From: Chitinophagaceae bacterium
GTDB taxonomy: Bacteria; Bacteroidota; Bacteroidia; Chitinophagales; Chitinophagaceae
Length of the DNA: 64,000 bases
NCBI GenBank assembly: GCA_019638595.1
Contig: JAHBTJ010000008.1
Location: forward strand, 124,001 to 188,000
Direction of reading: 5' to 3'
In this document: in pieces, positions 24,814-36,633 of the stretch
How the letters are laid out: the number at the start of each line of letters is the position of its first letter
Position numbering within the stretch: position 1 is the first letter of the stretch
Position numbers and translations under genes: made by a program
Notes under the pieces: generated by a model
Seen by the model: only the letters and a program-made list of their open reading frames with translations
Database searches by the model: none
What the model was told of the DNA's origin: nothing

Positions 24814-26444
<1,631 letters not shown>

Positions 26445-26478: not shown

Positions 26479-26523
26479 TTAGTACTTTATTTTATTTTTT
26501 ACTTATTCCAGCTTTTCTTCTGA

Positions 26524-26638
26524 CTTATCTGTCACGCTTGCTGCGTGATGGAATTGGCACCTTGCTTTACAATGCAAACGTTTGTAAAACAGGTTGCCAA
26601 GGCTTCATCGGGCCATTCCCTCTGCCTTTCTTGATAAG
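26524..26638 (-). ncRNA. SAM-I riboswitch (S-box) of metY
   Basis: The minus strand matches the SAM-I consensus throughout. P1 is formed by CTTATCAAGA (26638-26629) with AGATAAG (26530-26524). The core reads AGGCAGAGGGAATGGCCCGA, then TGAAGCCTTGGCAACC. AAGGTGCCAATTCCA follows, and P4 is CACGC..GCGTG. The kink-turn, pseudoknot and ligand-binding segments are all recognisable. It is a transcription-attenuating sensor of S-adenosylmethionine in other bacteria, and a terminator lies downstream here. It should turn off metY, and perhaps metX-hom by read-through, when SAM is plentiful. Confidence 0.97.
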
Positions 26639-26658
26639 TATGTATTAAAGAACTGGCG

Positions 26659-26716: not shown

Positions 26717-26749
26717 TTTCGGAAGATTGAAAATTAGATACTATCTTTG
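26717..26749 (+). promoter_or_regulatory. Promoter of the cys operon
   Basis: TTTC (26717-26720) and TATCTTTG (26742-26749) are 21 bases apart. The -7 box matches TAnnTTTG exactly and the -33 box is off by one base. The start would be near 26755, about 30 bases before the cysteine-rich leader frame. Confidence 0.65.
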
Positions 26750-26783
26750 TCCACCATTTTAATAGAGTAATAAAATTGCTTTG

Positions 26784-26825
26784 ATGGTGAAAATAGATAT
26801 ATACCGCCGCTGTTGTTGTTGTTGA
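26784..26825 (+). CDS. Cysteine-rich leader peptide (putative attenuator uORF)
   Basis: ATG at 26784 opens a 13-codon frame reading MVKIDIYRRCCCC and then TGA (26823-26825). Four consecutive TGT codons sit directly before the stop. The frame is about 30 bases after the predicted cys promoter and 65 bases before cysH, the first gene of the sulfate-assimilation operon. A perfect 16-bp palindrome follows 5 bases after its stop. This is the arrangement of amino-acid leader peptides, in which ribosomes stall at the rare amino acid's codons. Cysteine-rich upstream frames are known before cysteine genes in mycobacteria. The regulatory role here is inferred, but chance is unlikely. Confidence 0.8.
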   Translation: MVKIDIYRRCCCC

Positions 26826-26830
26826 TACAC

Positions 26831-26846
26831 CCTGCTTTAAAGCAGG
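26831..26846 (+). promoter_or_regulatory. Hairpin after the cysteine leader peptide
   Basis: CCTGCTTTAAAGCAGG is a perfect 16-bp palindrome starting 5 bases after the leader stop codon and ending 44 bases before the cysH ATG. It has no T-tract, so it is not a plain terminator. A ribosome on the leader's Cys codons or stop codon would cover or abut its 5' arm. It may be the switching element of a translational or Rho-linked attenuator. Confidence 0.6.
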
Positions 26847-26890
26847 ATGCCTGACAAGAAACTCAAACTTCCCATCAATTTCAACGGATT

Positions 26891-27622
26891 ATGACTCAAA
26901 CAACTCTCACCGGAGATATTCAGGAAATTTCCCGGCTCATCAGCGAAGCCGGTATCGCTCAAAGTTTACAAAACATTGCCGGCACCTACCCGGGGCAGGT
27001 GGTTTTTTCTACCAGCTTCAGTTGGGAAGACCAGGCGATCTCTCATATCATATTCAGTGAAAACCTGGACATACAGGTTTTTACCCTGGATACCGGGCGC
27101 ATGTTCCCGGAAACCTATTCTACCTGGAGCCGGACACTGGAGAAATACAATTATCCCATTACTGCGTTTTATCCCGATAGCCTTAGTCTCCAGCAATTTA
27201 TTGAACAAAAAGGTCCCAACAGTTTTTATGAATCGGTTGAAAACCGTAAACAGTGCTGCCATATACGCAAGGTGGAACCCCTGCAGCGTGCATTGAAAGG
27301 AAAGAAAGTATGGATCACCGGCATACGCTCCGAACATTCACCCAACAGGCAGGATATGCAACAACTGGAATGGGACGGATCGAACAATATAGTAAAATAC
27401 CATCCAATACTGCATTGGACTACCGATGAAACGATCGCTTTCATTAATAAAAACGAAATACCTTATAATCCTTTACACGATAAAGGTTTTGTAAGTATTG
27501 GATGCGCCCCCTGCACAAGAGCCATCCGCCCGGGAGAAGATTTCCGCGCCGGGCGCTGGTGGTGGGAAGACGCATCGAAGAAAGAATGCGGATTGCATGT
27601 ACATGAAGAAGTGAAGAATTAA
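26891..27622 (+). CDS. cysH: Adenylyl-sulfate (APS/PAPS) reductase CysH, Fe-S type
   Basis: This enzyme reduces activated sulfate to sulfite with thioredoxin. The 243-residue protein has the PAPS-reductase P-loop-like region VVFSTSFSWEDQAISHI (about 37-53) and FTLDTGRMFPETY. The cysteine pairs are Cys122-Cys123 (KQCCHIRKVEPL) and Cys205/Cys208 (GCAPCTRAI). These bind a [4Fe-4S] cluster in reductases that use APS directly. The C-terminal ECGLH carries the catalytic cysteine. The operon has no APS kinase (cysC), and CysN here lacks a fused kinase, so direct APS reduction is predicted. It is the first structural gene after the leader peptide. Confidence 0.95.
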   Translation: MTQTTLTGDIQEISRLISEAGIAQSLQNIAGTYPGQVVFSTSFSWEDQAISHIIFSENLDIQVFTLDTGRMFPETYSTWSRTLEKYNYPITAFYPDSLSLQQFIEQKGPNSFYESVENRKQCCHIRKVEPLQRALKGKKVWITGIRSEHSPNRQDMQQLEWDGSNNIVKYHPILHWTTDETIAFINKNEIPYNPLHDKGFVSIGCAPCTRAIRPGEDFRAGRWWWEDASKKECGLHVHEEVKN

Positions 27623-27658: not shown

Positions 27659-28567
27659 ATGAGCGCACATCACCTTGATTATTTAGACGAGTTGGAATCG
27701 GAGTCCATTCACATTTTTCGTGAGGTGGCAGGACAATTCGAAAAGCCTGCATTGCTGTTCAGCGGAGGTAAGGATTCTATTGTATTGGTTCACCTGGCAT
27801 TAAAGGCGTTCCGCCCGGGGAAATTTCCTTTTCCCCTGGTACATATTGATACCGGGCACAACTTCCCGGAAGCGTTACACTTTCGCGATCAACTGGCAGA
27901 CAAAATAGAAGAAAAGCTGGTGGTAAGACTGGTGGAGGATACAATAAAAGCAAAAAAGCTGACCGAGCAAAAGGGAAAATTTGCCAGCCGTAACCAATTG
28001 CAAACCTATACCCTGCTCGACACTATAGAAGAGTTTGGCTTTGATGCCTGCATTGGCGGGGCAAGAAGGGATGAAGAAAAAGCAAGAGCCAAAGAACGTA
28101 TTTTTTCCGTTAGGGATGAATTCGGGCAATGGGATCCTAAAAGGCAACGCCCTGAATTGTGGAATACTTATAATGGCAAGATCAACAAAGGGGAGAATGT
28201 AAGAGTATTTCCCATCAGTAACTGGACAGAGCTGGATGTATGGAATTACATACGCCGCGAAAATATCACTTTACCTTCTATCTATTTTGCACACGAAAGA
28301 GAAGTGCTGGAATATGAAGGACAGTATGTAGCCGTGTCTGAACATATACGTATAGACGAAACAGATGTAATTGTGCATAAAAGGGTACGTTACCGCACCG
28401 TAGGCGATATGACCTGTACCGCGGCGGTAGCTTCCAATGCTAACACGCTTGATGACATCATCAACGAGATCATAGCTACTAAAACAAGCGAAAGAGGCGA
28501 AACAAGAATTGATGATAAAGTATCGGAAGCAGCCATGGAAGACAGGAAGAAGAACGGATATTTCTGA
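27659..28567 (+). CDS. cysD: Sulfate adenylyltransferase subunit 2 CysD
   Basis: CysD is the catalytic PP-loop subunit of ATP sulfurylase, making APS from sulfate and ATP. The PP-loop LLFSGGKDSIVLVHLALKAF is at about residues 33-52. Family motifs are HIDTGHNFPEALHFRD, CIGGARRDEEKARAKERIFS and FPISNWTELDVWNYI. The C-terminal RYRTVGDMTCTAAVAS is also conserved. The 302 residues are the standard length. It works as a heterodimer with CysN, encoded 72 bases downstream. Confidence 0.97.
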   Translation: MSAHHLDYLDELESESIHIFREVAGQFEKPALLFSGGKDSIVLVHLALKAFRPGKFPFPLVHIDTGHNFPEALHFRDQLADKIEEKLVVRLVEDTIKAKKLTEQKGKFASRNQLQTYTLLDTIEEFGFDACIGGARRDEEKARAKERIFSVRDEFGQWDPKRQRPELWNTYNGKINKGENVRVFPISNWTELDVWNYIRRENITLPSIYFAHEREVLEYEGQYVAVSEHIRIDETDVIVHKRVRYRTVGDMTCTAAVASNANTLDDIINEIIATKTSERGETRIDDKVSEAAMEDRKKNGYF

Positions 28568-28632
28568 TTTATGATTTATGATTTGAGATTTTATTGCTGA
28601 TAGCTGAATGCTGACAGCCGATAGTTAAAAAA
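28566..28632. repeat. Short-word repeats between cysD and cysN
   Basis: The spacer consists of tgatttatgatttatgattt followed by gctgatagctgaatgctgac-type words. It resembles the spacers at 8572-8637 and 35075-35118. No other signal is seen. Confidence 0.55.
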
Positions 28633-28639
28633 ATATTTA

Positions 28640-29884
28640 ATGGACATTTTAAGATTTATTACCGCCGGAAGTGTTGATGATGGGAAAAGTACGCTCATTG
28701 GTCGTTTGCTGTACGACAGCAAAAGCATTATGATAGACCAGTTGGAAGCGATTGAAAAACAAACTAAAAATCGTGAAGAAGGTGAGATTGATCTTGCACT
28801 TTTAACCGATGGTTTAAGAGCAGAACGCGAGCAGGGCATTACCATTGATGTGGCATACAAATATTTCGCCACTCCCAAACGAAAATTTATTATAGCCGAC
28901 GCACCTGGGCATATTCAGTATACCCGCAACATGGTTACCGGCGCTTCTAACTCCGATCTTATTATTATACTGATAGATGCCCGCAATGGCGTTGCCGAAC
29001 AAACCCGCCGGCATTCTATCATCGCGTCATTGCTCAATATGCCTAAGGTAATTGTTGCGATCAATAAAATGGACCTGGTAGATTTTTCGCAGGATGTATA
29101 CAATAACATTGTAATTGAATATGCCAACCTGGCAAAAGCATTGGGGCTGGAAGATGTAACCTATATTCCTATAAGCGCGCTGAACGGCGATAACATAGTA
29201 GAAAAATCAGCGACGCTTTCGTGGTACGAAGGCGAATCGCTGCTGCATTTGCTGGAAACGGTAGAGCTGGAAAAAGCGATCAACCTCAACAAAGCCCGTT
29301 TCCCCGTTCAGTATGTCATTCGTCCTCAAACGGAAGAGTTGCATGATTACAGGGGATACGCCGGTAAGGTGATCAGCGGCATCTACAAAAAAGGCGATGC
29401 TGTTACCGTATTGCCTTCGGGCGCTACCAGCACCATTTCGGCAATAGAAACAGATGGCGGTAAGCTGGCGGATGAAATATTCGCGCCGCAGGCGGCCGTA
29501 CTACACCTGCAGGATGATATTGACATCAGTCGCGGAGATGTGATCGTATTGAACAACGATCTTCCAAAAACAGAAAAAGAAATAGAAGTACTGTTGTGCT
29601 GGATGGATAGTAAACCGCTGATCCCCGGCAATAAATATTTGCTGCAGATCAACAGCACCCGTGTAAGAAGCATTGTGAAAGATATTGAATACAGGCTGGA
29701 CGTAAACTCGCTGGAAAAAAAATACGGACCTGAGCAGGCAGGGTTGAATGATATTGTAAAAGCCGTTATTAAAACAGCCCAGCCGATAGTATACGACAGT
29801 TATAAGAATTTAAGAGCCAATGGCGGCGCCATATTAATTGACGAAACCAGTAATGTAACAGTGGGGGCGTGTATGATACAGTAG
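28640..29884 (+). CDS. cysN: Sulfate adenylyltransferase subunit 1 CysN
   Basis: CysN is the GTPase subunit that drives ATP sulfurylase. The G1 loop GSVDDGKSTLIGRLLYDSKS is at residues 10-29. The switch II region is ADAPGHIQYTRNMVTGAS, and G4 is INKMDLVDF. Domains 2 and 3 have an EF-Tu-like beta-barrel pattern (VIRPQTEELHDYRGYAGKV). At 414 residues it lacks the C-terminal CysC APS-kinase domain found in some CysNC fusions. This supports a route through APS rather than PAPS. Confidence 0.97.
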   Translation: MDILRFITAGSVDDGKSTLIGRLLYDSKSIMIDQLEAIEKQTKNREEGEIDLALLTDGLRAEREQGITIDVAYKYFATPKRKFIIADAPGHIQYTRNMVTGASNSDLIIILIDARNGVAEQTRRHSIIASLLNMPKVIVAINKMDLVDFSQDVYNNIVIEYANLAKALGLEDVTYIPISALNGDNIVEKSATLSWYEGESLLHLLETVELEKAINLNKARFPVQYVIRPQTEELHDYRGYAGKVISGIYKKGDAVTVLPSGATSTISAIETDGGKLADEIFAPQAAVLHLQDDIDISRGDVIVLNNDLPKTEKEIEVLLCWMDSKPLIPGNKYLLQINSTRVRSIVKDIEYRLDVNSLEKKYGPEQAGLNDIVKAVIKTAQPIVYDSYKNLRANGGAILIDETSNVTVGACMIQ

Positions 29885-29973
29885 AAGGGATAAGGGATAG
29901 GATATAGGAAAGTTTCCCTACATCTTACACCCCACACCTCATACCTTACACCTCACACCATATACCATAACTA
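29884..29973. repeat. Short-word repeats between cysN and cysE
   Basis: Near-copies of cataccttacacctcacacc fill about 29915-29968, preceded by gggataagggataggatata. No hairpin or promoter box stands out. The operon probably continues through it. Confidence 0.55.
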
Positions 29974-30762
29974 GTGTCGCAAAAAAAATTCATACAGCAA
30001 CTGGCGGAAAGAAAAAGTAAAACTTTCCTGGCTTTCCCCGACAGGGAGTTGGCCAGGTTATTTATTGAAGAGCTGTTCAACCTGTTGTTTCTTCCGGCTA
30101 CCCTGCGACAGCAAAACCAGTACGAGTTGGAGAAAGCCTTTGAGTCTTTAAAAAGTCATCTTTCCACACTGGTATACGAGGTAGTGCGCGATGGAAAGAA
30201 AGCGCAATCTGCAGCGGATGAATTTTTCGCCGCAATACCCGGTATCTACAACGCTTTGCTGAAGGATGCAGAAGCTATTCTTCAATACGATCCCGCGGCG
30301 GAGTCGGTAGAAGAAGTGATCGTTGCCTACCCCGGCTTTTACGCGATTGCGGTATACCGCCTGTCGAACCAGTTGTGGAAACAGCAGGTAAAGATCCTGC
30401 CCCGCCTGCTTACAGAATTCGCCCATAGCAAAACGGGCATAGACATTCATCCCGGCGCTACCATTGGCGAATCATTTTTTATTGATCATGGTACGGGCAT
30501 CGTAATTGGAGAAACTACCGTTATTGGCAACAACGTAAAAATATACCAGGGAGTAACCATTGGCGCATTAAGCGTGTCGAGAGAAAAAGCAGTTGGCAAG
30601 CGTCATCCCAGCATTGAAGACAATGTGATCATTTATTCGGGCGCCACTATTTTGGGAGGTGAAACGGTAATAGGTGAAGGCACCACTATAGGCGGGAACG
30701 TGTGGCTGACCAAAAGCGTTCCAAAGCATACTCTTATTGAACAAAACAGCACTATAAAATAA
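29974..30762 (+). CDS. cysE: Serine O-acetyltransferase CysE
   Basis: CysE acetylates serine to O-acetylserine, the carbon acceptor for sulfide in cysteine synthesis. The start is GTG at 29974. The protein has an N-terminal helical domain and a C-terminal left-handed beta-helix. Hexapeptide repeats start near residue 155: IDIHPGATIGESFFIDHGTG, VVIGNNVKIYQGVTIGA, KRHPSIEDNVIIYSGATIL and GEGTTIGGNVWLTKSVP. The His-Pro-Gly-Ala region and DHGTG are the conserved serine and acetyl-CoA site. The 262-residue form with a long N-terminus resembles EpsC-type SATs. It links the sulfide-producing genes to cysteine formation. Confidence 0.93.
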   Translation: MSQKKFIQQLAERKSKTFLAFPDRELARLFIEELFNLLFLPATLRQQNQYELEKAFESLKSHLSTLVYEVVRDGKKAQSAADEFFAAIPGIYNALLKDAEAILQYDPAAESVEEVIVAYPGFYAIAVYRLSNQLWKQQVKILPRLLTEFAHSKTGIDIHPGATIGESFFIDHGTGIVIGETTVIGNNVKIYQGVTIGALSVSREKAVGKRHPSIEDNVIIYSGATILGGETVIGEGTTIGGNVWLTKSVPKHTLIEQNSTIK

Positions 30763-30786
30763 CAATGATATTGTTTTGATACATAC

Positions 30787-31638
30787 ATGAGCAACACGAA
30801 CAATATACAGGGCAAAGTAATACTGGCGGCAGCAGGTCCGGGAGATCCTGAATTAATAACCATGAAAGCCGCGCGCTACCTGCAGAGCGCCGACGTTGTA
30901 TTAACGGATCGCCTGGTAAGTCATGAAATTTTAACGCAGTATGTTAACCCGGCCGCCGAAGTGATATATGTGGGCAAGCAGTGCCGCCGCGGTAACTCTA
31001 CTCCCCAGGAAACGATCAATGAGCTGATGCGGCAGTTCGCGCAACAGGGAAAGCTGGTAGTACGGTTAAAAGGCGGCGATGTTTCTATCTTCTCCAATAT
31101 ACTCGACGAGCTGCAGGTGCTGGTTCAGCATACTATACCCTACGAAATTGTTCCGGGAGTAACCGCCGCGCTTGGCGCTGCCGCGTATGCCGGCATACCG
31201 CTTACGGCAAGAGGTTATTCTACGGCAGTACGCCTGCTTACCTACTATAAATCTGATATAGTACCCGATCAATATTGGGAAGAGTTGGCCAAAACCAGCG
31301 ATACCCTTGTGTTTTATATGTCTGCAGAAACGGTAGACGGCATTGTATCGAAACTGATCCGTTACGGTATTGGAAAAGACAGGCATATAGCCGTAATAGA
31401 ACAGGGTACTACCACAGCACAGCAGGTGTACAGCTCCGGTATATATGATTTTACCGGCAGGTTTGAAGGATACAGCTTTATTTCTCCATCGCTGGTAATT
31501 GTAGGTAGGGTGGTAACGCTGCATGAACAATTCGCATGGCTCGCTAATGCGTCAGTACGCGAGCAGTATTTCAAACCTATGGCATTATTACAAAACAATA
31601 TCAATCATAATAAGAAAGCACATGTTAGCAGAGCATAG
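30787..31638 (+). CDS. cobA: Uroporphyrinogen-III C-methyltransferase (SUMT)
   Basis: SUMT makes precorrin-2 from uroporphyrinogen III with SAM, the first step to siroheme, which CysI needs. Signatures are AAAGPGDPELITMKAARYLQ near residues 14-33, VIYVGKQCRRGNSTPQE and VVRLKGGDVSIFS. EIVPGVTAALGAAAYAGIPL follows. The 283 residues include a short C-terminal extension. The next gene, cysJ, starts inside the last codons of this one. The siroheme dehydrogenase/chelatase partner is the N-terminal domain of the fusion protein at 35122. Confidence 0.95.
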   Translation: MSNTNNIQGKVILAAAGPGDPELITMKAARYLQSADVVLTDRLVSHEILTQYVNPAAEVIYVGKQCRRGNSTPQETINELMRQFAQQGKLVVRLKGGDVSIFSNILDELQVLVQHTIPYEIVPGVTAALGAAAYAGIPLTARGYSTAVRLLTYYKSDIVPDQYWEELAKTSDTLVFYMSAETVDGIVSKLIRYGIGKDRHIAVIEQGTTTAQQVYSSGIYDFTGRFEGYSFISPSLVIVGRVVTLHEQFAWLANASVREQYFKPMALLQNNINHNKKAHVSRA

Positions 31639-33319
31639 ATTGAAAGCATTCCAGGATCTTGTTACCCAATCCTCACACGAGGAGTTGATATGGATGAACG
31701 GGTTTCTTGCCGGGCTTGTTTCGGCATCAAAAAATACCCCGCCGGTTAGCGCCGTTGCCCCGGCCGCTCCTAAAGTGAACAAGATCTCCATATTGTTTGG
31801 TACGGAAACAGGCAATTCAAAAAAAGTAGCTACCGAGTTTGCCGGCCAGGCAAAAAAGAACGGGGTGAACGTAAAGCTGGTCTCGCTCGATCAGTATCGC
31901 GTCAACGATCTTCCGAAAGAAGAATATCTCTTCCTGGTAATAAGCACACAGGGCGATGGCGAACCTCCTGCTACCGCTAAAAAATTCTATGATCACATTC
32001 ACCAGCAGCAGGTCAATCTTGATAAAGTAAAATTCAGCGTGCTGGCCTTAGGCGATACTTCTTATCCCCTGTTTTGTAAAGCGGGAGAAGATGTGGATAC
32101 ACAGCTTGTAAAACTGGGCGCTAAACGCATTGTGCCTTTGCAGAAATGCGATACGGACTACGCGGAAGATGCGGCCGCATGGTTCGCCCAGGTAATGAAA
32201 TCGTTGAGCGACGGGGGCAGTGGAAGCGCTTTGCCTGCTCCTGCTAAAAAAGCCAAAGGCAAAAAAAATTATACAGGTACAATTCTTACCAATATCAATC
32301 TTAACGACAGGGATTCCAACAAGCAAACCTATCACCTGGAGATCGCGTCGGAAGAAGAAGTGGCATATGAGCCCGGCGACTCTCTTGGCATCATTCCCCA
32401 TAACAAAAAGGAAACGGTTGAAAACATTATAGCGCTTACCGGCGCCGATAGCGAAACCGCCATTGAGTTCAGGAGCGAACGGTATACGATAGCCGAAGCG
32501 CTTACAAAAAAGCTGAACATTGTTCACCTGCCTGAAAGGGTAGTAAAGCAATATGCTTCCATCGTTCAGCAGGAGATACCCGACACCCGCATTGACCTGC
32601 TGGATCTTTTACGGATCTATCCTGTAAAAGATGCCGCCCAGTTTGAGCAGGTGATCAACATACTGGAGCCTGTAGCTCCAAGATTGTATTCTATTTCTTC
32701 ATCACCCGAAGCGCATAGCGGGGAAGTGCATATAACGGTTGCGCTCGATAGGTTTTGCATCAATAACGAAACCAAATTCGGCTTGTGCTCCGATTACCTT
32801 TCGCAATTAAAAATAGATTCAACCATCGACTTTTATATACACAAAAATTCGCAGTTCAAATTACCGGCTGCCGATAAAGATGTGATAATGATCGGCCCCG
32901 GAACGGGGATAGCGCCTTTCCGTTCTTTTATAGCGGAAAGAGATGCCACCGGCGCTACCGGGCGCAACTGGCTGTTTTTTGGCGATCAGAAGTTTACTTC
33001 CGACTTCCTTTATCAAACAGAAATCCAGAACTGGGCCGATACAGGTGTGTTAAGCAAAGTAAACCTTGCTTTTTCCAGGGATCAGAAATCAAAAATATAC
33101 GTGCAGCACCGTATGCTGGAACATTCGGAAGAGTTGTGGCAATGGATAGAGAACGGGGCATATATTTATGTATGCGGCGCTAAATACCCTATGAGCAACG
33201 ATGTTGAAAATACCTTATTGCAGATCATAGAACGCCAGGGTGGCAGATCCATCAGCGATGCAATAGCATTTATTGAAAAAATGAAAGAAGAAGGAAAGTA
33301 TTTGCTGGATGTATATTAG
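31622..33319 (+). CDS. cysJ: Sulfite reductase flavoprotein subunit CysJ
   Basis: CysJ passes NADPH electrons through FAD and FMN to CysI for sulfite reduction. Domain order is a short helical region, flavodoxin (ILFGTETGNSKKVATEFAGQ), an FAD-binding barrel (LYSISSSPEAHSGEVHITVA) and an NADPH-binding domain (VIMIGPGTGIAPFRSFIAER). The C-terminus is EEGKYLLDVY. An in-frame extension to 31523 overlaps cobA in another frame and shows no family sequence. ATG at 31622 (MLAEHRLKAF) gives 565 residues and a 17-base overlap with cobA, which suggests translational coupling. Confidence 0.95.
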   Translation: MLAEHRLKAFQDLVTQSSHEELIWMNGFLAGLVSASKNTPPVSAVAPAAPKVNKISILFGTETGNSKKVATEFAGQAKKNGVNVKLVSLDQYRVNDLPKEEYLFLVISTQGDGEPPATAKKFYDHIHQQQVNLDKVKFSVLALGDTSYPLFCKAGEDVDTQLVKLGAKRIVPLQKCDTDYAEDAAAWFAQVMKSLSDGGSGSALPAPAKKAKGKKNYTGTILTNINLNDRDSNKQTYHLEIASEEEVAYEPGDSLGIIPHNKKETVENIIALTGADSETAIEFRSERYTIAEALTKKLNIVHLPERVVKQYASIVQQEIPDTRIDLLDLLRIYPVKDAAQFEQVINILEPVAPRLYSISSSPEAHSGEVHITVALDRFCINNETKFGLCSDYLSQLKIDSTIDFYIHKNSQFKLPAADKDVIMIGPGTGIAPFRSFIAERDATGATGRNWLFFGDQKFTSDFLYQTEIQNWADTGVLSKVNLAFSRDQKSKIYVQHRMLEHSEELWQWIENGAYIYVCGAKYPMSNDVENTLLQIIERQGGRSISDAIAFIEKMKEEGKYLLDVY

Positions 33320-33321
33320 GT

Positions 33322-33400
33322 TTCGGGTTTGTGGTTTATGGTTTATGGTCAACTATAAACGACAAACTAATCTCAAATTTCAAATGTCAAATTTTTAATA
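33322..33400. repeat. Short-word repeats between cysJ and cysI
   Basis: The spacer reads as variants of gtttatggtttatggtc and aatctcaaatttcaaatgtc. The frame of cysI runs open through it, but this sequence does not look coding. It is the reason for preferring the 33406 start. Confidence 0.5.
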
Positions 33401-33405
33401 TTGTT

Positions 33406-35073
33406 ATGTCTGAAAAAAATAACCTGTCGTCTACGGAGCATATTAAAATGAAGAGCGACGGATTGAGGGGTACCTTAAAAGAAAGCTTAAAAGATGAAAT
33501 TACCGGGGCGATACGCGAAGATGACCGTGCCCTGGTGAAATTTCATGGTATGTACCAGCAGGATGACCGCGACAGAAGGGAAGAGAGAAGCGCCAAAAAG
33601 CTGGAATGGTTATATTCATTCATGATCCGCCTGCGCATACCGGGTGGTTTCATCACCGCTGAACAATGGGAAGCGCTGCACCATATAGCCGGCGCGCACA
33701 CTACCGGCGTAATTAAAATTACCACACGCCAAACCGTGCAGTTGCATGGCATCTTAAAATCGCATGTAAAACCCACCATCCAGGCATTTAATACGGCCGG
33801 GCTGGATTCTATTTCCGCGTGCGGAGATGTGAACAGGAATGTAATATGCGCGGCACATCCCAAATTTTCTCTGCTACACGAAGAAATATTTGCATACTCT
33901 CATAAGCTAAGTCAGTTGGCAAAGCCTAAAACAAAAGCTTATTACGAAGTATGGTTAGATGAAAAACCGCTTACAGATAAACAGGAGGAGGAAGATCCCT
34001 TATACCAGAACAGGTACCTGCCCCGTAAATTCAAAATAGGCATCGCTATTCCTCCAACGAACGATGTGGATGTTTTTGCCAATGATTGCGGGCTGATAGC
34101 GATCGAAGAAAAGGGCAAGCTGGCCGGCTTTAACATTCTTGCAGGCGGTGGTATGGGCGCCACACATGGCAACGCTGCTACCTACCCGCGCCTGGGAACA
34201 GTATTGGGCTTTGTACCTGCGGGCGAAAAAGTGTACAAGGCTGTTTATGAAATGATCACTGTACAGCGCGATTTTGGTAATCGCAGCGACAGAAAATTAT
34301 CGAGGCTGAAGTATACGCTTGATAATATGGGGGTAGAAGCTTTTAAAGCAGAGCTGGAAAAACGTTGCGGATTTAAACTGGAGCCTGAACGTCCTTACAA
34401 ATTTACCGGCAGAACTGATTTTTACGGGTGGCATAAAAATCATGAAGGGAAATGGTACTATACCGCGTTTATTGAAAATGGGCGCGTGCATGATAATGAA
34501 GAGTTGCCGTTAAAAACCGCTTTTCTTGAAATAGCGCTATTGCGGAAATGTAATTTCAGGTTTACCTGCAACCAGAACCTCATTGTTGCAGACGTAAGCG
34601 AAAAAGACAAGGCGGAGATACATGCCCTGCTGGATAAGTACGGCATTATTAAAGAAACGGAACAGGCTACCCCGCTGCGTAAGGAGGCTATCTCCTGCGT
34701 GGCATTCAATACCTGCCCGCTGGCCCTGGCAGAAGCACAACGCTACCTGCCGGAATTGCTCAGTAAGATGGAACCCATCATGCATAAATACGGGCTCGAC
34801 GATGATAACATCAGCGTGCGGATGACAGGATGCCCGAACGGTTGTGCAAGACCTTATGCGGCTGAAATCGCTTTTATAGGTACTTCTTACGGACATTATA
34901 ACCTGCAAATAGGTGGCGACAGGGAAGGCATGCGGCTAAACAAGCTGTATAAGGAAAGCCTGGGCGAAGAAGCGATTCTTAAAGAGCTTGACGAACTGCT
35001 GAAAACATATAGCGATAACCGCAACCCTGAAGAAACATTTGGTGATTTTGCAATGAGAGCAGGGCTGGTATAA
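33406..35073 (+). CDS. cysI: Sulfite reductase hemoprotein subunit CysI
   Basis: CysI reduces sulfite to sulfide at a coupled siroheme/[4Fe-4S] centre. The cluster cysteines are in SCVAFNTCPLALAEAQRYLP and RMTGCPNGCARPYAAEIAFI, the hallmark CX5C and CX3C pair. Substrate-binding basic residues occur in TTRQTVQLHGIL and GDVNRNVICAA. ATG at 33406 (MSEKNNLSSTEHIK) gives 555 residues; the upstream in-frame extension is repeat sequence. Siroheme would be supplied by cobA and by the fusion gene downstream. Confidence 0.96.
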   Translation: MSEKNNLSSTEHIKMKSDGLRGTLKESLKDEITGAIREDDRALVKFHGMYQQDDRDRREERSAKKLEWLYSFMIRLRIPGGFITAEQWEALHHIAGAHTTGVIKITTRQTVQLHGILKSHVKPTIQAFNTAGLDSISACGDVNRNVICAAHPKFSLLHEEIFAYSHKLSQLAKPKTKAYYEVWLDEKPLTDKQEEEDPLYQNRYLPRKFKIGIAIPPTNDVDVFANDCGLIAIEEKGKLAGFNILAGGGMGATHGNAATYPRLGTVLGFVPAGEKVYKAVYEMITVQRDFGNRSDRKLSRLKYTLDNMGVEAFKAELEKRCGFKLEPERPYKFTGRTDFYGWHKNHEGKWYYTAFIENGRVHDNEELPLKTAFLEIALLRKCNFRFTCNQNLIVADVSEKDKAEIHALLDKYGIIKETEQATPLRKEAISCVAFNTCPLALAEAQRYLPELLSKMEPIMHKYGLDDDNISVRMTGCPNGCARPYAAEIAFIGTSYGHYNLQIGGDREGMRLNKLYKESLGEEAILKELDELLKTYSDNRNPEETFGDFAMRAGLV

Positions 35074-35074
35074 T

Positions 35075-35118
35075 TTCTGATAGCTGGCGGCTCATTGCTG
35101 ATGGCTCAATGCTGAAAA
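35075..35118. repeat. Short-word repeats between cysI and the fusion gene
   Basis: Degenerate copies of tgatagctggcggctcattg and tgatggctcaatgctg fill the 48-base spacer. The pattern matches other intra-operon spacers. Confidence 0.5.
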
Positions 35119-35121
35119 TTC

Positions 35122-36633
35122 ATGAATGATACAACAACCATAAAAGAAACAAATTCCCTCTTCCCGGTTTTTTTAAAACTGGAGCAATTGCAACTGCTGA
35201 TTGTTGGAGCAGGAAACGTAGGCCTTGAAAAGCTGAACGCGGTGTTGTTAAATTCTCCCGCAACAAGCATAACCATTGTTGCCGCCAGCGTGCACGAAAC
35301 CATACGCGCTATTGCCGGGCGTCATGAAAATATTATTATTAAGGAAGAAGCCTATTCAGAAGATCATTTAACCGGCATAGACATTATTATTGTTGCGGTA
35401 AACGATAAATTACTCGGGCGACAGATCAAAATAGACGCCCGGAAACGCGGTTTGCTGGTAAACGTGGCCGATACACCCGAGCTCTGTGATTTTTACCTGG
35501 GCTCGATCGTAAAAAAGGGGAATTTAAAAGTAGCGGTTTCTACCAACGGTAAATCTCCTACCATTGCCAAACGAATTAAAGAAACACTGAACGAAGTATT
35601 GCCGGATGAGTTGGATGACGTATTGCTGAATATGGAAAAGATCCGCGGCAAAATGAATGGCAGCTTTGCCAGCAAGGTGCACGAGCTCAACCATATCACC
35701 AAAGCACTTTCCCTCAAGGAAACACCCGGTACCAAAAATGCCGGCGAAAGAAAATGGAAACGCATCGCCACCTGGTCTTTATTCGCGTTCTTTTTTATGT
35801 TTACCGGCCATTTACTATTACTGTATGCGCCTTTCGGCGATTTACTCGCCTCCATAGGTGAGGGCATTAAAAATTTAGACAGCAGGTTTTACTGGATGAT
35901 AGCCGCCGGCTTTTTAGCCCAATTGGTAGACGGAGCATTGGGTATGGGATATGGAGTGGTATCCACTACCGTATTAATGTCATTAGGTGTTAACCTATCC
36001 GCTATCAGCGGCAGCATCCATACCGCCGAAATGTTTTCCAGCGGGGTTTCAGGCTATAGCCACTACAAATTCGGCAACGTAAATAAAAAGCTTTTTAAAG
36101 CTTTACTGATACCTGGTATTGTAGGCGCCATACTGGGAGCCTACCTGTTATCCAGCTTCGGTGAACAATATGCAGAATATGTACGTCCTTTGATCGCCAC
36201 CTATACCATGCTGCTCGGTATCCGCATCCTGATCATCGCTTTACGTAAAGTACAGCGCAAGCCTCAAAAGGTAAAGCGGGTTGGCTGGCTGGCCGGCGCG
36301 GGTGGCTTTCTCGATTCATTTGGCGGAGGCGGATGGGGTCCACTGGTTACCAGTACCCTTATTTCCAAAGGCCGCAGCCCAAGATTTGTAATTGGTTCGG
36401 TAAGCATTACCGAATTTTTTGTTACCCTGGCAAGCGCGCTCACCTTTTTCGCCATGATAGGTGTAAGTCACTGGCAGGTAATACTGGGGCTGATCGTTGG
36501 CGGGCTGATCGCGGCGCCTATCGCGGCACGCCTGGTAGGCAAGCTGCCTATGAAAACCATGTTCATAGCAGTAGGGGTAATGGTGGTGATATGGAGCCTG
36601 CGCATCTTGTTAAAAGCAGCCGGATTATTTTAA
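35122..36633 (+). CDS. Siroheme synthase N-domain fused to a TSUP (TauE/SafE) transporter
   Basis: Residues 1 to about 205 are a precorrin-2 dehydrogenase/sirohydrochlorin ferrochelatase domain (Met8/CysG N-terminal type). It has a Rossmann loop LLIVGAGNVGLEKLNAV, then VNDKLLGRQIKIDARKRGLL, NVADTPELCDFYLGSIVKKG and VAVSTNGKSPTIAKRIKE. Residues from about 215 to 503 form a polytopic TSUP-family permease with about eight helices (LAQLVDGALGMGYGVVSTT and GFLDSFGGGGWGPLVTSTLI). This family exports sulfite and other organosulfonates. The first half would complete siroheme synthesis for CysI. The second half may move sulfur anions across the membrane. There is no frameshift at the junction. It ends the sulfur operon. 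Confidence 0.93.
   Translation: MNDTTTIKETNSLFPVFLKLEQLQLLIVGAGNVGLEKLNAVLLNSPATSITIVAASVHETIRAIAGRHENIIIKEEAYSEDHLTGIDIIIVAVNDKLLGRQIKIDARKRGLLVNVADTPELCDFYLGSIVKKGNLKVAVSTNGKSPTIAKRIKETLNEVLPDELDDVLLNMEKIRGKMNGSFASKVHELNHITKALSLKETPGTKNAGERKWKRIATWSLFAFFFMFTGHLLLLYAPFGDLLASIGEGIKNLDSRFYWMIAAGFLAQLVDGALGMGYGVVSTTVLMSLGVNLSAISGSIHTAEMFSSGVSGYSHYKFGNVNKKLFKALLIPGIVGAILGAYLLSSFGEQYAEYVRPLIATYTMLLGIRILIIALRKVQRKPQKVKRVGWLAGAGGFLDSFGGGGWGPLVTSTLISKGRSPRFVIGSVSITEFFVTLASALTFFAMIGVSHWQVILGLIVGGLIAAPIAARLVGKLPMKTMFIAVGVMVVIWSLRILLKAAGLF

Follow-up and report, generated by a model that had tools for sequence, protein, structure and literature searches.

The sulfate-assimilation operon in the window, that is, the whole stretch of 64,000 nucleotides from a Chitinophagaceae bacterium that was analysed, is preceded by a short open reading frame whose last four codons before the stop encode cysteine, and we suggest that this frame encodes the leader peptide of a cysteine-responsive attenuator. 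We put the probability of this reading at about 0.7. The sensing part, a ribosome on the Cys codons, is well supported by comparison. Related sequences show the Cys run and its position at the stop, together with the pairing arms in the nearest clade and the composition of the spacer. We infer translation of the leader, stalling, the direction of control and the type of output, which could be translational, Rho-dependent or both. By the features that can be tested here the element would belong to the polycysteine leaders, and its mode of action would be that of a translation or Rho attenuator. The locus is organized as follows.

26784 to 26825, plus strand: leader open reading frame MVKIDIYRRCCCC and its stop (sequence, comparative counts)
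26811 to 26822, plus strand: four TGT Cys codons, the proposed sensor (sequence, comparative counts)
26891 to 27622, plus strand: cysH, PAPS reductase domain (PF01507), first gene of the operon (Pfam)
27659 to 36633, plus strand: remaining operon with cysD, cysN, hexapeptide transferase, tetrapyrrole methylase, cysJ-like gene, cysI-like gene and siroheme/TauE fusion (Pfam)
26522 to 26640, minus strand: SAM riboswitch (RF00162, 90 bits) of the divergent met17 (Rfam search)

The leader runs from an ATG at 26784 to a TGA at 26823–26825, on the strand of cysH and 65 nt upstream of its ATG (26891), and this is the 13-codon poly-Cys frame which the initial annotation had described. The annotation's view that the downstream operon makes cysteine agrees with the Pfam domains of sulfate-assimilation genes, namely two PAPS reductase domains (cysH and cysD), a GTPase (cysN), a hexapeptide transferase, a tetrapyrrole methylase, a flavodoxin-type reductase (cysJ-like), a sulfite reductase (cysI-like) and a siroheme/TauE fusion. 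On the divergent side we find a Cys/Met PLP enzyme, here named met17, and an abhydrolase (metX-like); the gene names at the locus were assigned by us from the domains. An Rfam search of the leader matched no family and returned a single hit at chance level (E 3.4).

Four TGT codons directly before a stop had been called very unlikely by chance, and the family-wide counts bear this out. We found cysH in 94 of 147 family genomes and read the best 70 of these 94 loci, the weakest 24 being left out. A leader was scored when a frame of at most 60 codons, at most 300 nt upstream, carried at least four (or at least three) Cys within a window of six codons. At least four Cys are present in 28 of the 70 loci and at least three in 37, versus 1 and 52 of 1400 dinucleotide shuffles of the upstream regions; the opposite strand of the same regions gave 0/70 and 3/70. 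P values in the leader statistics, here and below, ignore relatedness. When the run test was carried out for each amino acid, Cys was seen 28 times with 0.4 expected, Leu 27 times with 9.0 expected and Val 6 times with 0.6 expected, and the remaining 17 amino acids were seen at most once. The excess of Leu and Val is due to the other reading frames of the TGTTGT repeat.

A chance run or a TGT microsatellite could be imagined, since TGY repeats are common in these genomes and three near relatives lack the run. However, the shuffles almost never produce such a run, TGT and TGC alternate within the runs, and among the named loci only 3 of 179 control genes (met17 excluded) have at least four Cys. 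One of these three is a spurious frame in a cysH region and the other two precede PALP and peroxiredoxin genes; met17 itself scored in 9 of 12 cases. The shuffle test together with the control-gene and amino-acid counts leads us to reject this origin for the leader set and to regard it as extremely improbable. The Cys run before cysH is not a product of chance.

The genome itself contains the pattern of four Cys codons and a stop 10 times in 7.06 Mb, the occurrence in the window included. Eight of the other nine sites were read and by eye none of them is leader-like; several are Leu-rich protein starts in a shifted frame. Runs of five Cys codons, searched in 8 genomes, lie mostly inside genes among the matches listed. 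From these, 30 loci plus another 19 stretches were inspected, with the own-genome site C51:192912 left out; the five-Cys sites inspected gave no further leader in the own genome.

A single tRNA-Cys is expected to read both TGT and TGC. In the 37 family leaders the Cys codons are TGT 148 times and TGC 54 times, with 209 and 156 in the cysH genes themselves, and the mixture within the runs indicates that the amino acid and not the codon is kept. The last Cys lies at most two codons from the stop in 36 of the 37 family leaders and in 28 of 34 named leaders. From the leader stop to cysH the distance is 36–80 nt in 33 of the 37, 117–134 nt in three and 228 nt in one (L056). The latter has no ATG, is probably spurious and was excluded after the codon and distance counts. 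The N-terminal parts of the peptides and their lengths vary while the Cys run is kept.

Leaders with at least four Cys precede 34 of 80 named cysH loci, from Chitinophagaceae, Saprospiraceae and Rufibacter, and none of the 14 named loci of Pedobacter, Epilithonimonas and Chryseobacterium; the named loci overlap with the family set, many of them being records already contained in it. Several Saprospiraceae-type leaders continue for 9–12 further codons after the run. A class-wide sample of 198 genomes yielded cysH in 39. Outside the family there were 36 class hits; upstream regions were fetched for 35 of them (one, L223, almost without upstream sequence), and five have at least five Cys, all of them in one further family, f5, where they make up 5/6 of the loci.

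The initial annotation had named absence of the frame in close relatives with the same operon as evidence against it, and here the picture is divided. Among the seven nearest relatives by cysH identity the run is present in L079, L011, L147 and L083 and missing in L080, L081 and L082 (= L010), in which the operon is present. These latter three all carry a Cys leader before met17. By eye, AGCTGA-type repeat sequence occupies the middle of their cysH leaders in place of the run, and both pairing arms (see below) are retained. The alignment that the annotation had proposed likewise gives a mixed answer: the Cys run is kept while its flanks vary, but the exact frame MxxIDxYRRCCCC is not, the leader of the closest relative L079 reading MVKIDIYCCCCC, and nor is the hairpin. 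In the window the run is preceded by the Arg codons CGC CGC (26805–26810), each one base away from TGC, and L079 has Cys at these positions; the window may therefore have lost Cys codons.

The initial annotation missed that the leader start can pair with the region in front of cysH, as it missed the C-rich spacer and the Cys leaders on the met17 side of relatives. Two arms are involved.

26781 to 26787, plus strand: 5′ arm UUGAUGG covering the leader start (pairing scan, alignment, folding)
26872 to 26878, plus strand: 3′ arm CCAUCAA, 13–19 nt before the cysH ATG (pairing scan, alignment, folding)

The two arms can pair with each other in the clade of the window. An alignment of 13 near leaders shows an invariant TGATG at the leader start and, in 12 of them, RTCAA roughly 17 nt ahead of cysH; the exception, L011, has the Cys run and lacks the 3′ arm. 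Between the arms the sequence varies except for the Cys run. To scan for pairing, windows along the leader were compared with the region upstream of cysH, using 62 distinct leaders out of the 70. In 12 near leaders the signal peaks at the leader start (mean z −2.0 to −2.7 over three windows, −2.7 in the best one) and the mean z is about 0 elsewhere along the leader, but this near group was chosen by eye once the arms had been noticed and its z values are thus no independent test. In the 50 other leaders z also falls at this position, though weakly (mean z −0.61; 13 of 50 below −1.6).

When 14 sequences are aligned with the 3′ arm anchored on RTCAA and L011 left out, the six inner pairs are formed in all 14, the flanking pairs are of several pair types, and 79.8% of the cells of the helix are paired versus 20–60% when the arms are slid. 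Covariation is moderate, with 10, 12, 37, 164 and 257 of 500 shuffles reaching the five measures used, and four pairs never vary. The lowest-energy fold of the window leader contains the arm helix; the entire leader does not stand out from shuffles in stability (z −0.34 and −1.18). We also considered, and rejected, a helix between the Cys codons and the cysH entry region, as neither group gave a scan signal along the runs; among the folds listed, single leaders, for example L028 and L044, do fold in this way. No Shine-Dalgarno site is involved as far as we have seen.

In all 12 near leaders the first Cys follows 7–9 codons after the ATG. With the usual footprint of a ribosome in mind, a ribosome stalled on the Cys codons would in this clade stand close to the 5′ arm. 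We modelled the stall in 36 leaders by blocking the footprint and computing how much energy it takes to open the cysH entry region. The mean relief is modest, 1.6 kcal/mol vs 0.6 in shuffles (p 0.027), and p is 0.085 with a second ribosome placed at the leader start. The window leader taken alone shows no gain in this model (0.5 vs 1.5 in shuffles).

Between the leader stop and cysH lie two further features.

26831 to 26846, plus strand: stop-proximal hairpin CCTGCTTTAAAGCAGG, a 16-bp palindrome (sequence; not conserved; z −1.62)
26826 to 26890, plus strand: C-rich, G-poor spacer, a possible Rho loading region (composition)

The palindrome begins 5 nt past the leader stop, as the initial annotation had pointed out, yet it is not conserved: of 13 aligned leaders only that of the window and, in altered form, that of L079 contain it. 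Folding adds a further stem in which 26819–26823, the last Cys codon and the stop, pairs with 26853–26857. We asked how general such hairpins are by folding the stretch between the last Cys codons and a point 30 nt beyond the stop, with shuffling confined to the 3′ side. The mean z is −1.87 for 22 met17 leaders, 14 of which are below −1.5 (3 in the downstream and 1 in the upstream control), and −0.77 for the 62 cysH leaders, with 17 below −1.5 (controls 13 and 5). The stop-proximal hairpin thus stands out clearly before met17, and its signal before cysH is no more than modest.

Classical transcription attenuation would employ such a hairpin as an intrinsic terminator, and a second terminator-like site, a 5-pair stem with T6, lies within cysH at 26986–27002. 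The palindrome, however, has no T-tract after it and is not conserved, so we reject it as an intrinsic terminator; neither a scan for T-tracts and terminators nor the alignment revealed one between leader and cysH, which agrees with the annotation's argument against simple intrinsic termination. The site in cysH was rejected as well: its T6 recurs in 9 of 15 near relatives but falls within a protein motif that is conserved, and inspection by eye shows that the relatives do not retain the stem of the window. We therefore consider control by an intrinsic terminator very improbable.

We suggest that the attenuator works in these following steps. A ribosome would start at 26784 and meet the four Cys codons immediately before the stop. 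With ample Cys-tRNA it would run off, the stop-proximal stem could form, and UUGAUGG would pair with CCAUCAA just before cysH so that the gene is closed to ribosomes. The naked C-rich spacer and the untranslated cysH may then draw Rho. If Cys-tRNA is scarce, the ribosome would be held on the Cys codons, where it would adjoin the 5′ arm and occupy the 5′ side of the inner stem; the leader would then be unable to close and cysH would be translated. The output which we favour is accordingly twofold, closure of the cysH entry by the leader start and action of Rho on the untranslated message.

The main rival is control by Rho alone. In the tna operon of E. coli the ribosome is held at the end of the TnaC leader beside a Rho site and free tryptophan is sensed via the nascent peptide. 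Here too a ribosome held at the leader end could mask the start of a Rho site, and run-off would expose it, with Rho ending transcription before or in cysH; Cys-tRNA shortage would be the likely signal, in contrast to TnaC, and the arms would be secondary or serve control of the leader start only. The Cys run at the stop fits this, as does the fact that the arms are not general beyond the near clade. A Rho gene is encoded in the genome, and the spacer is C-rich, G-poor and YC-rich across 84 leaders: C minus G is 0.124, versus 0.042 in 213 other upstream regions and −0.008 in 38 leader-less cysH regions (kinship uncorrected). Passages of Seliverstov 2005 (PMC1262725) put forward the same idea for Actinobacteria. 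But spacer composition is no substitute for a Rho assay, and the retained 3′ arm beside cysH is left unexplained. On balance we hold Rho control alone to be unlikely, though a serious contender, and prefer the combination of closure and Rho.

Upstream of the leader we note a predicted promoter and a dyad.

26742 to 26749, plus strand: −7 promoter box TATCTTTG of the TAnnTTTG type (sequence; predicted)
26748 to 26768, no strand assigned: 21-bp dyad TGTCCACCATTTTAATAGAGT, an imperfect copy of AGTCTAC-N7-GTAGACT, operator-like (motif scoring)

The box resembles TAnnTTTG, which we take to be the −7 consensus of the Bacteroidota type and on which the call rests, and the leader ATG follows about 30 nt downstream. 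A sigma-70 scan found 2 sites with 2.0 expected and so lends the promoter no support. Of 84 leader promoters, 32 hold the dyad with a score of at least 11 of 14, versus 12 of 420 plain shuffles, and the copy of the window scores 10. It recurs near the promoters of both cysH and met17 leaders and looks like a putative operator of an unnamed regulator; directly upstream of several met17 leaders it could also be a second promoter mark. A second layer proposed by the initial annotation, in which CACCAT (26752–26757) pairs with ATGGTG over the leader start, had to be given up: aligned relatives read CACCAA, CACCAG, CACTAA and CTACTA, and the element itself is positioned at, or spans, the expected start of transcription.

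Similar leaders precede met17. Searching for met17 leaders by a strict DNA pattern gave matches in only 3 of 147 genomes, hence we turned to a protein-based search, which found met17 in 66 of the 147 at the cut-off used. Before met17 a leader with at least four Cys is present in 16 of 30 loci read. L190, found by the leader pattern, is left out of this count and included in the 22 met17 leaders of the hairpin and spacer tests. Such second poly-Cys leaders, before met17, were noted among the loci L193–L221, L080, L081, L082, L083, L084, L085, L087, L119 and L147.

These leaders often end in CCMP and a stop, which is explained by the hairpin GUAUGCC-N4-GGCAUAC spanning the stop. This bears on the idea that the peptide itself acts, as a thiol- or metal-binding small protein or as a nascent sensor of a signal other than Cys-tRNA. 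Poly-Cys could bind metal, and a recurrent Met-Pro end might hint at a function of the peptide; but the hairpin accounts for Met-Pro, N-termini and lengths vary freely, and the downstream genes belong mostly to sulfur metabolism. We judge a function of the peptide as such improbable.

The SAM riboswitch is present in 13 of 20 read met17 loci that were checked, and 8 of the 13 have the Cys leader too. On the met17 side of the window a Cys leader was looked for and is absent, so that the window, with its Cys leader on cysH, is the reverse of L080, L081 and L082. The two leaders are not mutually exclusive as both occur in L083 and L147. Past the riboswitch terminator, the long met17 leader of the window contains an inverted repeat GCCGGTTTACTCA ... 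TTGAGCGGTAACCGG on the minus strand (26284–26339); by eye it sits roughly where relatives carry the met17 Cys leader. Cys leaders also precede PALP (cysK-like) genes (L151, L179), a peroxiredoxin gene (L151), a DUF4395 gene (L141) and a gene with a CarboxypepD_reg domain (L164); the extra poly-Cys leaders are located at 259–340 and 1152–1257 in L151 and at 1381–1474 in L141.

Tentatively, we envisage that several Bacteroidia families control a cysteine regulon (cysH, met17, cysK-like genes and a few others) by poly-Cys leaders without occlusion of a Shine-Dalgarno site. In the clade of the window the leader start codon would pair with the cysH entry so that one helix shuts both leader and gene, and on met17 the SAM riboswitch and the Cys leader would act in series. 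If the latter holds, the enzyme at the branch between Cys and Met would read both end products. The riboswitch and the cysH leader share the intergenic region and would both serve control by a sulfur metabolite, the riboswitch being an aptamer for SAM.

Polycysteine leaders are known from another phylum. In mycobacteria, cysteine-responsive attenuators with polycysteine short open reading frames precede cysteine genes (Canestrari 2020, PMC8764745, as cited in PMC13236596 and PMC9094748), and the term in the citing paper is translation attenuation. In the citing passages these frames are called leaderless, whereas here the ATG lies some 30 nt past the promoter box; also unlike what is stated there, arms can pair the leader start with the gene entry and no Shine-Dalgarno site is seen to be involved. 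The portions of Seliverstov 2005 concerned with predicted cys leader peptides treat only Actinobacteria. They share with our leaders the Cys runs near the stop, the cys operon downstream, the lack of a terminator hairpin, the pyrimidine-rich spacer and the suggestion of Rho, but report no conserved pairing. For Bacteroidota, leader peptides are mentioned in general terms in excerpts of PMC9723704 and PMC7366714; among the literature matches listed none describes a cysteine attenuator from this phylum, and a comparative study of 2010 by Lopatovskaya (cited in PMC4833913) could hold one.

In summary, the features of the cysH leader point to a relative in kind of the mycobacterial ribosome-based cysteine sensors, now in another phylum. 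Bacteroidota are believed to initiate translation largely without a Shine-Dalgarno interaction, and dozens of leaders that can be compared, with a predicted signal that is clear, are now at hand in such bacteria. These leaders make it testable how a stalled ribosome may control a downstream start and how a SAM riboswitch and a cysteine leader may cooperate on met17.
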